Assembly: GCF_000016325.1 (NCBI RefSeq)
Contig: NC_009436.1
Span: 2,790,001 to 2,854,000 of the forward strand
From: Enterobacter sp. 638
GTDB lineage: Bacteria > Pseudomonadota > Gammaproteobacteria > Enterobacterales > Enterobacteriaceae
Direction: 5' to 3'
DNA length: 64,000 nt
Positions 21,778 to 24,800 of this stretch are shown here, piece by piece (within the stretch, counting starts at the first letter, position 1; every line of letters begins with the position of its first letter). The position numbers and the translations under genes were made by a program. Below the pieces are notes generated by a model. It was given only the letters and a program-made list of their open reading frames with translations, searched no databases and was not told the DNA's origin.

Positions 21778-21960
21778 GTGAAATACAGCGAGTTCCTTCG
21801 CTGGTTAAAGTCCCAAGGAGTCACGATTGAAAATGCCAGAGGTGGTGGTAGCCACCGGAAAGCAACAATCAACGGAAGGAAATCAATATTCCCCTTCCAC
21901 GGCTCAAAGGAGATACCAGAGGGAACAAGAAAATCGATAATCAAGGATCTGGGGCTTTAG
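21778..21960 (+). CDS. hicA: HicA mRNA interferase toxin
   Basis: A 60-residue toxin with the double-stranded RNA-binding-like HicA fold. It starts at GTG with AGGAGG just upstream (VKYSEFLRWLKSQGVTIENA) and keeps the catalytic His in ARGGGSHRKAT. HicA cleaves mRNA and slows growth unless bound by HicB, encoded 48 bases downstream. It runs against the flanking lysis and late genes, so the module is an independent insertion that may stabilise the prophage. Confidence 0.9.
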   Translation: MKYSEFLRWLKSQGVTIENARGGGSHRKATINGRKSIFPFHGSKEIPEGTRKSIIKDLGL

Positions 21961-22008
21961 GCCCCACCCTTTTCGACACTGAGTCCTATTAACGAAAAGA
22001 GGTTTTAT

Positions 22009-22440
22009 ATGTTCAGATATTCCGCATCAGTTTCTTTTGACAACGATGCAGGTCAGTACGAGATTAGTTTTCGAGACTTCGAGAACCTGCATTCTGTTGC
22101 ATTCAACGAAGACGATATCGAGCTCGAAGCGCGAGACGCTTTAACAGCAATGGTTGGCGAACTGATTGATTCGCGCATACCAATACCAGAACCAACGACA
22201 GCTCAGGAGGGTGAGATTGTTATTCACCTTCCCGTTCTGACATGTCTCAAAGCAGCTCTTCACAATGCGATGATCAGCACCGGTACGCGTAAGGCAGATT
22301 TGGCAAGAAAGCTTAATCAGAAAGGCCCGCAAATTGACCGCTTGTTGGATGTTAGCCACGCATCAAAAGTCGAGACGCTGGAGCAAGCCTTATATCTCCT
22401 GGGATATGAGGTTTCAGTGTCTGTTGTGAGAGTTAATTAA
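22009..22440 (+). CDS. hicB: HicB antitoxin
   Basis: A 143-residue antitoxin. The N-terminal part (FRYSASVSFDNDAGQYEISF) is the degenerate RNase H-like HicB domain that blocks HicA. The C-terminal part (TGTRKADLARKLNQKGPQID) is a helix-turn-helix for binding its own promoter. GAGG-type ribosome site precedes the ATG. Toxin-first order is typical of hicAB. Confidence 0.9.
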   Translation: MFRYSASVSFDNDAGQYEISFRDFENLHSVAFNEDDIELEARDALTAMVGELIDSRIPIPEPTTAQEGEIVIHLPVLTCLKAALHNAMISTGTRKADLARKLNQKGPQIDRLLDVSHASKVETLEQALYLLGYEVSVSVVRVN

Positions 22441-22565: not shown

Positions 22566-22590
22566 AAAAAAAATGCCGCCCGAAGGCAGC
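22566..22590 (-). terminator. Terminator downstream of the TPR/HEPN operon
   Basis: Minus strand: GCTGCC-TTCG-GGCGGC followed by A and eight T. A weaker hairpin TGCCA-AGA-TGGCA with seven T lies closer to the gene, near 22665 to 22682. Both would end transcripts of the 22698 to 23860 operon. Confidence 0.8.
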
Positions 22591-22697
22591 CTGTTAAAGT
22601 TCTTTAAATCAATCCAAATTCAGTGGTTGCTAATCAATGTGATATCACTGAATTTTCGGATACAAAAAAATGCCATCTTGGCAGGTTTAAAATTTAA

Positions 22698-23096
22698 TTA
22701 GTCTAGAGATGGCGGGTATACGGCTTCGTAAGTAACTTTAATTTGATTCATTGCTTCTTTAGCTGTATTAAGCGCTGATTCAGCATCTGACTTGAACATG
22801 TCACGAGTGAGTTTATAGTCAGCCCATTTGCGTTGAACATGCAGACCATGAAGAAACGCTCCAATCCGCCTAAGCTCAGCTTTATCGAAAGGTTCCTTTT
22901 TGGCCCTAGACTCACTCATCAGGTACTTACGAACCTCTTCATGTGAGTCTGTGACATAACAGTGTTCTAGTTTACTACAAATTTCATGGTAAACGCCGTA
23001 ATAGGCTCGCCCCACTGTGTTTCTAAAACCAATTTCGTCATCGAAATCGAGACACTTTTCAGCGAAGTTAATAAAATCATGCCCACCGACACTCAT
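22698..23096 (-). CDS. HEPN-like protein, candidate RNase effector
   Basis: A 132-residue, mainly helical protein. The segment FRNTVGRAYYGVYHEICSKL matches the SRAYYAxFH-type signature of HEPN domains, with R30 and H37 in the R-x(4-6)-H spacing of HEPN ribonucleases. The C-terminal half is helical and charged. Its ATG overlaps the stop of the upstream TPR-like gene (ATGA), so the two are co-translated. HEPN proteins in two-gene operons are often toxins or defence effectors. RNase activity here is inferred from the motif alone. Confidence 0.6.
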   Translation of the reverse strand: MSVGGHDFINFAEKCLDFDDEIGFRNTVGRAYYGVYHEICSKLEHCYVTDSHEEVRKYLMSESRAKKEPFDKAELRRIGAFLHGLHVQRKWADYKLTRDMFKSDAESALNTAKEAMNQIKVTYEAVYPPSLD

Positions 23097-23860
23097 AGCT
23101 CCATTCCTTTCGACTGTGTGCTCTTAAACCAAGAGGTAAACGGACGATCTATGTAAGCATCCTCAGTAAGCAAATTTATCAGCTCAATGTTGATAGTAGT
23201 GAGCGTTTTAGCATCATCTGTCTCAGCAAAAAGGATTATAGCGTTATCATAGCCACCGCTGAGGAAGTACTCGACGCCAACACAATTCACGCCATGATTG
23301 TTTGCAATTTTCTCGGCAGAATCACATAGACGCTCAATCTCAGATGAGGTTAATTTTGTTGCTTCCTTGAAGCTCGAAATTGTCTCAACCATATCTGCTC
23401 CTTCCCGTTCAATTTTTTCACGTTCCTCGCCATCAAGTAACGCTTTCATCATAACGGTGTACTTTTTCACCAACCTTTCACTACCCATGCAGCAAGCTGC
23501 AGCTCTTGCTTGCTTTCTGATTCGTTGTGTGCAAAACACCTCTACAAGACGAAACACTTCTTGTTTATGAAACAGGTTATGGGCTGATCCACTCAAATAG
23601 CCTAAATAGTTCCCAGCAACAATTGCAGAATTTTCCCCTGAAACAGCTATTGCCTCGTTAAACCACCGAACTGCGTCATCATGTCTATCGAGCGCCACCA
23701 TGAGCCATGCCGTCAGATACGAGCGCGAGTCGTTAGGTAAGGCACTGATATCTCGCTTGATATCAGATAACTCAGGCTCCTTGAGAGGAGTACGCGATTC
23801 TATATAAGATAGCAGTGTATCAACCAACTCTTGGTGCTTAGTCTGAGTTTGAGCCTGCAT
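23093..23860 (-). CDS. TPR-like helical protein, partner of HEPN gene
   Basis: A 255-residue protein with helical repeats resembling tetratricopeptides (residues 45 to 110: SRSYLTAWLMVALDRHDDAV, then WFNEAIAVSG). The C-terminal region contains a charged helix and NIELINLLTEDAYIDRPF. I know no named family. It precedes and overlaps the HEPN-like gene, so it is probably the sensor or antitoxin partner. The operon lies between the Q-like gene and hicAB, a usual cargo spot in lambdoid phages. Confidence 0.6.
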   Translation of the reverse strand: MQAQTQTKHQELVDTLLSYIESRTPLKEPELSDIKRDISALPNDSRSYLTAWLMVALDRHDDAVRWFNEAIAVSGENSAIVAGNYLGYLSGSAHNLFHKQEVFRLVEVFCTQRIRKQARAAACCMGSERLVKKYTVMMKALLDGEEREKIEREGADMVETISSFKEATKLTSSEIERLCDSAEKIANNHGVNCVGVEYFLSGGYDNAIILFAETDDAKTLTTINIELINLLTEDAYIDRPFTSWFKSTQSKGMEL

Positions 23861-24221
23861 TTATGAATTTACTCTTTGAAATTGATGCGTTTTTATTTTT
23901 TTAATTGTAATTCACATCTGTGAATCTGAGCGGATGATTCTAACAGTTAACAGCTTGTTGTCACGGGAAACCAAGAAAAAATTGTAAAAAGTGTAGTCGT
24001 TAAATAGGTCTTTACACCTACTTATAATAACGGAGCCGCTATGCACATTTTCATTCTTTACTGCCTCCATAGCTGCGGAACAAAAGTCATGGTGGCATGT
24101 GCTTGATTGAGGTTGAGGAGATCCATTCAAACCAATATCGTAATGAGAAAACCCGCACTGATGGCGGGTTTCTTTTTGTTCTGATGCTCAGTTCGCTTTA
24201 ACGTCCCGAGCCTACCACAAT
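23861..24221. other. Region between Q-like gene and TPR/HEPN operon
   Basis: A hairpin AAACCCGC-ACTGATG-GCGGGTTT at 24149 to 24171 is followed on the plus strand by CTTTTT; on the minus strand the T-run is weaker (TTTTCTC). Placed just after the Q-like gene, it could be the late-promoter terminator on which Q-type proteins act. A weak minus-strand ORF of up to 72 codons (23912 to 24130, TTG start) is listed separately. The 50 bases before the TPR gene are very AT-rich and probably hold its promoter. Confidence 0.5.
23912..24130 (-). CDS. Possible small protein, 52 to 72 aa
   Basis: An open frame ending FYNFFLVSRDNKLLTVRIIR plus five residues. The full ORF needs a TTG start; an internal ATG at 24070 would give 52 residues (MEAVKNENVHSGSVIISRCK at its start). 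No good ribosome site is visible. The composition is protein-like, but I do not recognise it, and it may be chance or the remnant of a leader ORF. Confidence 0.3.
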   Translation of the reverse strand: MNGSPQPQSSTCHHDFCSAAMEAVKNENVHSGSVIISRCKDLFNDYTFYNFFLVSRDNKLLTVRIIRSDSQM

Positions 24222-24800
24222 TTAAGCACTTTGTTGCTCACTTGGCAACTTAAATCTGTCGCTATTTGTGCCGAACGCATCACAAATTGGCACGTACAGG
24301 ATCGATTCTGCCAGACTTAACCAGGTATCTATGCGACGACGACAAGTGATTATTGTCCAGTCAGGGTGTTTGGCCTGAAGTTCATTAGCCATCTGGAGTT
24401 TGCTCTTGCGCAGGCGGTGACGATCAACAATCACGCCATAGAGAGAGCGGTAATCATCATTCATCAGCACTGAGGCAATGACGCCATCAATTTTCAGTCC
24501 TTCATCGTCAGAGCAGAACGCCAAGCCGCTTTTATTTTTACTGTTGAGGATCTCATTGAAGAACGCTTCCAGCTCAGGTTTCTTGATACCAGCTTTCTTC
24601 ATACGGCGCAGCGCTTCATTGATCGCCGTCTTGGTGATTTTCCCGGATGCAAGGAGCGTGTTGAACATGTTCCCGCCAGAACCACCGCCGATGTATGACC
24701 AGCGGCCCCACATGCGCAATTTGCCCTGAATCCAGATGCTTTCAAGTGTACGAAGGCGAACCAATTCGCCGGATTTGCCAACTTCAGAAGGGTTAATCAT
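24222..24800 (-). CDS. DUF1133 protein, Q-like late antiterminator candidate
   Basis: A 192-residue DUF1133 protein: SIWIQGKLRMWGRWSYIGGG near residues 21 to 40 and the WLSLAESILYVPICDAFG end are typical. DUF1133 genes take the place of Q at the end of lambdoid early operons and are annotated as late antitermination regulators. Next to it lie a terminator-like hairpin and the lysis and late genes in the same direction, which need readthrough of at least five terminators. The function is by position and family. Confidence 0.8.
   Translation of the reverse strand: MINPSEVGKSGELVRLRTLESIWIQGKLRMWGRWSYIGGGSGGNMFNTLLASGKITKTAINEALRRMKKAGIKKPELEAFFNEILNSKNKSGLAFCSDDEGLKIDGVIASVLMNDDYRSLYGVIVDRHRLRKSKLQMANELQAKHPDWTIITCRRRIDTWLSLAESILYVPICDAFGTNSDRFKLPSEQQSA

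Follow-up and report, generated by a model that had tools for sequence, protein, structure and literature searches.

A partner-HEPN gene pair in an Enterobacter prophage as a predicted anti-phage module of toxin-antitoxin type

A prophage region of Enterobacter sp. 638 carries two overlapping minus-strand genes that form a self-contained cassette, coding for a HEPN-fold protein of 132 amino acids (aa) and, directly upstream, a partner of 255 aa composed of TPR-like repeats and a RimP_N-like C-terminal domain. The pair was studied in a window of 64,000 nucleotides, by which we mean the whole stretch of DNA analysed (NC_009436.1, positions 2,790,001-2,854,000; genome of 4.68 Mb, here G000). We predict that it is a phage-borne toxin-antitoxin-like module that protects the lysogen from rival phages, a reading held with about even confidence, and a sensor or antitoxin combined with a ribonuclease (RNase) effector is a reasonable predicted model for the two proteins. 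A preliminary description of this DNA had placed the two genes, sharing an ATGA overlap, between a Q-like gene and hicAB in a prophage cargo site, with an AT-rich upstream region and terminators of their own; the open reading frame (ORF) list, the Pfam matches of the neighbours, our scans for expression signals and the phage cargo positions of relatives all agree with this (Table 1).

The HEPN protein and its two-domain partner

The downstream protein has the helical bundle of HEPN domains, as the preliminary description had proposed, and matches phrog_5176 (function unknown, E 1.2e-33). Seven of 22 relatives match PF05168 at E <= 0.1 (best 4.1e-6), and the protein is of the same kind as AF0298-like HEPN-T (PF05168, UPF0332; PDB 2hsb), so it does not represent a new effector class. 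In an alignment of 64 HEPN rows (excluding L030, whose HEPN frame stops early), H52 and Y94 are kept in all rows, R89 in 63, and D93 in 60, with E in the other four. H52 stands at the start of a short helix (residues 52-60) between helices 21-42 and 72-94. The Rx4-6H motif was not found at the end of helix 3, where R89-x3-D93 has D or E in place of the histidine, nor was the RX4HXY of HEPN-MNT toxins, which corresponds here to R-x3-D-Y. Near-invariance of H52, R89 and Y94 over such divergent rows is the pattern of an active site.

The preliminary description had taken R30-x6-H37 as the HEPN motif. Both residues are present, in a GRAYYGVYH signature, yet they are less conserved (51/64 and 55/64) than H52, R89, D93 and Y94; the position of H37 is Y in 9xbd, and that of R30 is T in 2hsb. 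This motif is rejected as catalytic on conservation; the motif position is R89-x3-D93-Y94, with H52 as the alternative histidine. According to the available part of PMC3710099, the histidine of Rx4-6H varies within the HEPN superfamily, AF0298-like HEPN-T has an alternative histidine, and ribonuclease activity of AF0298-like HEPN-T is printed as a prediction. Judging from the sequence, the window protein is likely an AF0298-like candidate RNase acting via H52, R89, D93 and Y94. Two solved HEPN chains, PDB 9xbc and 9xbd, differ at the tyrosine of R-x3-D-Y (F in 9xbc, Y in 9xbd), which suggests that others are apparently testing that residue; our literature search found no paper on either entry.

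The partner matches phrog_17809 (function unknown, E 3.6e-55); above cut-off, neither it nor the HEPN protein matches Pfam or NCBIfam. Its structure model (predicted local distance difference test, pLDDT, 91.6; predicted template modelling score, pTM, 0.84) has N-terminal TPR-like helical repeats followed by an alpha-beta-beta-alpha-beta domain; the TPR-like part had been described before, the C-terminal domain had not. The latter has the fold of the RimP N-terminal domain, superposing on RimP_N at 2.5 A over 78 residues. In hhalign comparisons with RimP_N, the partner C-terminal domains reached E 0.008 and ten solo partners (the small partners of distant relatives) E 0.0014, each above 60 of 60 shuffles, while a set of eight solo partners scored 19.96 against a best shuffle of 21.13. 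Unlike in RimP, the domain is joined to TPR-like repeats or stands alone, lacks a second RimP domain and is paired with HEPN.

This RimP_N-like domain is the part of the partner common to the solo partners. Among 1893 ORFs, a C-terminal-domain profile trained without them placed the solo partners of L063 (E 0.0035) and L065 (E 0.022) immediately below the TPR-bearing proteins and scored solo partners of a DxDGDP type at E 3.6 or worse. Compared as a set, eight DxDGDP-type solo partners scored 14.9 against the C-terminal domains (E 0.052) and 16.5 in the other direction (E 0.024; 40 shuffles with mean 6.6, standard deviation 1.3, best 11.6). Their relation to the domain is suggested but unproven, because the single-profile search gives no better than E 3.6. 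The small partners of three distant loci gave no signal against the large partners, and solo partners searched against solved structures gave a single match, at E 0.7, to a designed-looking chain.

A degenerate MNT origin of the partner core was considered and rejected: the order of elements is alike by eye, and hhalign scores fell within the range of shuffles, both for solo partners (10.3; shuffles mean 10.7, best 18.0) and for C-terminal domains (10.9; mean 8.5, best 12.8; n=40 each), against a set of seven MNT sequences that passed a motif filter, from 20 loci. No nucleotidyltransferase family was matched by the window partner at E <= 10, or found among 25 of the 29 families listed for relatives.

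A self-contained cassette at phage cargo sites

The window copy and seven prophage loci (L007-L013) share 70-73% DNA identity over one block, which begins 111-121 bases ahead of the partner start and ends 13-43 bases short of the HEPN stop. No further match adjoins this block, short matches lying elsewhere; the pair is a self-contained cassette with its edges near the promoter-like site and the HEPN stop. The block begins just upstream of the promoter-like site, which lies in a region of GC content 0.38 (23800-24199) and is conserved across seven of seven aligned loci, the -35 hexamer being invariant and the -10 invariant at five of six positions. The scanned stretch held 10 promoter-like sites where 5.9 were expected, and 9 terminator-like sites where 3.4 were expected.

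Sorting of pair loci in other genomes relied partly on a hidden Markov model (HMM) and partly on size and visual inspection. The check for co-occurrence proposed in the preliminary description gave, with the HEPN query in IMG/VR, a partner of 253-261 aa directly upstream with a 1-4 base overlap in 10 of 10 loci, which is more than chance would give. The prophage of the window itself is among the ten, as are two near copies, L009 and L010. Three named phages carry the HEPN gene (Klebsiella phages ST405-OXA48phi1.3 and Chronis, and Vibrio phage 10N.286.54.E4_PE001), each with a partner-sized gene just upstream, profile-recognised in both that were tested. Among 14 named-genome loci (L018 lying on the same contig as L002), the upstream gene was large (236-293 aa) in 10, small (101-138 aa) in three and of another kind (184 aa) in one. 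HEPN genes occurred in three of 60 close relatives, the window genome included, in 8 of 369 genomes of the class (E 1e-8) and in 32 of 398 genomes of the phylum (E 1e-5); megablast of E. coli genomes found no close DNA match. Six further class loci had a large upstream gene in two cases, a small one in three and another (173 aa) in one.

Besides the window there were 29 phylum loci, with an HMM-recognised partner (E 0.002 or better) in 13, another upstream gene of 224-259 aa in four, a solo gene of 89-120 aa in eight, an upstream gene of 188-194 aa in two, an MNT gene in one and none in one. The MNT case (L050; PF18765, E 5.4e-12) is a HEPN relative of this clade preceded by a gene of the antitoxin type of HEPN-MNT systems. 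Tree distances of partner and HEPN co-diverge (Mantel r 0.76, 31 pairs, 0/2000 permutations; r 0.57, 25 pairs, 0/2000 permutations without six near relatives), with common descent contributing to both values. A partner profile at E 1e-6 matches 126 of 398 genomes, many via TPR stretches only; a HEPN gene adjoins in 14 of 30 partner-profile loci, including all 13 with at least 148 bits.

Several variants of the arrangement were seen. At nine loci (L049, L053-L056, L058, L059, L061, L067) a protein of 89-120 aa, mostly with a DxDGD-like motif, precedes HEPN, and these resemble a pared-down two-gene relative lacking the TPR repeats. Proteins with TPR and the C-terminal domain and no HEPN gene within ~1.5 kb (L084-L086, L088-L100) come with several profile matches per genome in a few genera. 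L078 (G240:C414) has two partner-HEPN pairs in tandem; L028:2284-3948, with the 184-aa gene and another gene upstream of HEPN, is a possible three-gene version. The neighbours of a distant copy (L022:8909-11277, minus strand) resemble by eye an OLD/Rad50-like ATPase, a possible defence context.

The cassette and its relatives occupy differing spots in phages, which is what one would expect of a weapon aimed at rival phages. It lies downstream of Q in the window and in L007, L008 and L014, of a DNA methyltransferase gene in L009 and of a weakly Ren-like gene (E 3.3e-5) in L013; between terminase and portal in L012; and, elsewhere, two genes ahead of a tape measure gene or between P2 B-like and A genes. 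In L003, L004 and L021 it stands in a baseplate cluster. One of these is a second, very distant pair in the same genome, carried by a different prophage (G000:C2:907134-908289; L004, L068) and absent from the preliminary description, whose HEPN protein is 24-26% identical.

The baseplate slot holds strongly differing pairs. L003 and L004 are prophages from two genomes within a single genus, with neighbours 97.2% (upstream), 75.0% (first downstream gene) and 94.9% (second downstream) identical, but identity is 20.5% between their partners and 28.8% between their HEPN proteins; against L021, neighbours are 61-74% and pairs 22-37% identical. Such alike neighbours around dissimilar pairs indicate alleles of one system that were exchanged, or very fast diverged, in a fixed slot.

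Predicted function and alternatives

Partner-first order, overlapping or touching genes and a conserved promoter are usual in toxin-antitoxin modules. The order and contact of the two genes, the conserved promoter-like site, the co-divergence and the MNT-paired relative argue for a toxin-antitoxin-like pair. Defence of the lysogen is suggested by the cargo slots in phages, by the differing alleles in one slot, by the alternative histidine that AbiV also has, and by the precedent set by Tha, a prophage HEPN defence of Staphylococcus aureus triggered by phage tail proteins (available part of PMC11087260). In the mechanism that we infer, the downstream gene would encode an AF0298-like HEPN RNase using H52, R89, D93 and Y94, and the upstream gene its controller, whose RimP_N-like domain would bind HEPN directly and keep it inactive. 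The TPR-like repeats would sense a trigger, most likely some product of the infecting phage, upon which the released HEPN would cut RNA and stop the cell or the infection, guarding the lysogen against rivals.

Known systems share parts of this design. In HEPN-MNT systems (type VII toxin-antitoxin) the partner is an MNT nucleotidyltransferase (GSx10DxD); the window partner has no nucleotidyltransferase match, and the score of its C-terminal domain against MNT lies within the range of shuffles. The available part of PMC3710099 describes two HEPN families, LA2681 and AbiU2, whose operons also contain TPR or Sel1 genes. The window pair likewise sets a HEPN gene beside, and overlapping, a gene for a TPR-like protein, but Rx4-6H is kept in those families and not here, LA2681 being compared by description. 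AbiV, a lactococcal abortive-infection HEPN likened by description, has the alternative conserved histidine of AF0298-like HEPN-T, while the table in that part gives it no operon partner, against two genes here. Tha, also a prophage-borne HEPN effector, is a single protein of 301 aa with R-x4-H, as opposed to two genes and a different motif. Our literature search, with preprints and supplements outside it, found no published system named with this pair; DefensePredictor (available part of PMC13092281) lists four HEPN systems, including DS-11, one of which the pair may match. The partner architecture and its combination with HEPN have no PADLOC 2.0.0 match and were not met in the literature searched.

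Several observations weigh against an anti-phage module. PADLOC-DB 2.0.0 gave no family for either protein at E <= 10. Searches with the single window partner found two IMG/VR loci and no named phage, which means that the partner varies or is quick to diverge; and 16 of the 30 partner-profile loci have no HEPN gene within ~1.5 kb, so partner-like proteins also occur alone. An operator-like inverted repeat just past the -10 is not significant alone (shuffle fractions 0.18 to 0.62); in five of seven near loci, the window copy (L006) among them, the best repeat sits at the same distance from the ATG (-65 to -67), and in L007 and L013 it sits elsewhere. Finally, absence of the canonical Rx4-6H histidine means that the HEPN domain may be catalytically dead.

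A plain prophage addiction or stability module, in which HEPN toxin and partner antitoxin keep the prophage and do not fight phages, is possible though doubtful. It would fit a partner-first two-gene operon with its own promoter-like site, adjoined by the known toxin-antitoxin pair hicAB; the strong pair difference at one slot, between neighbours up to 97% identical, better suits specificity against rivals, and a tblastn search with the window HEPN found nothing at E 1e-5 among 72,556 plasmid records. Quite unlikely, in our view, is a catalytically dead HEPN that binds RNA or protein as a regulator with its partner, to control phage genes or to serve the host: the canonical histidine is lost, and probably inactive HEPN domains are described, for example as part of MtlR (available part of PMC3710099), but H52, R89 and Y94 look like an active site. 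The RimP likeness also allows a targeting subunit in place of an inhibitor, one that would guide the HEPN nuclease to structured RNA or to the small subunit of the ribosome, both proteins being needed for activity; this is improbable given RimP_N profile E values of 0.0014 to 0.008 and weak Foldseek rows for this part that include proteins of other roles (YiiP/ZnT, EngA).

Extending the anti-phage reading, the pair might, tentatively, stand for an unnamed class of weapons carried by phages. In it, an alternative-site HEPN RNase would be combined with a two-domain sensor, the TPR part reading the invader and the RimP_N-like domain either locking the nuclease or aiming it at the ribosome; alleles would be swapped in fixed slots, so that related prophages would stop different rivals, and minimal versions elsewhere would have a RimP_N-like antitoxin only. 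If the anti-phage reading is true, a recurrent prophage cassette joins the HEPN weapons and offers a compact two-gene test case for the alternative active site of AF0298-like proteins, which was put forward in 2013 and for which no test was found in the literature searched. It would also introduce the RimP_N-like domain as a HEPN partner domain, a type that did not turn up for HEPN partners in the examined parts of the literature. The allele difference in the baseplate slot makes specificity directly testable.

Feature coordinates and neighbouring genes

Table 1. Features of the cassette and its surroundings (window positions)
Feature	Position	Strand	Basis
Q-like gene, DUF1133/Phage_antitermQ	24222-24800	-	Pfam
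Promoter-like GTGACA-16-TAGAAT, TG before -10	23937-23964	-	Best of scanned stretch, 10/12 matches
Imperfect inverted repeat ATTCACAGATGTGAAT, operator-like lead	23910-23925	-	
Partner gene, TPR-like repeats and C-terminal domain	23093-23860	-	ORF; phrog_17809; structure model
TPR-like helical region, partner residues 8-168	23357-23839	-	
C-terminal domain, partner residues 172-247, RimP_N-like, probable HEPN-partner core	23120-23347	-	
HEPN gene, AF0298-like HEPN-T type, predicted likely RNase effector	22698-23096	-	
H52 codon, candidate alternative catalytic histidine	22941-22943	-	64/64 aligned rows; PMC3710099 (available part)
R89-Y94 codons, R-x3-D-Y form of HEPN Rx4-6H motif	22815-22832	-	64-row alignment
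Terminator-like hairpin after HEPN gene	22671-22683	-	Scan
Second terminator-like hairpin	22575-22590	-	Scan
HicB-like	22009-22440	+	Pfam
HicA	21787-21960	+	Pfam

Genes follow one another on the minus strand as DUF968, the Q-like gene, partner and HEPN; then come hicAB on the plus strand and holin and lysozyme on the minus strand. The hicAB genes (21787-22440) lie between the cassette and the lysis genes, in the orientation opposite to that of the cassette.
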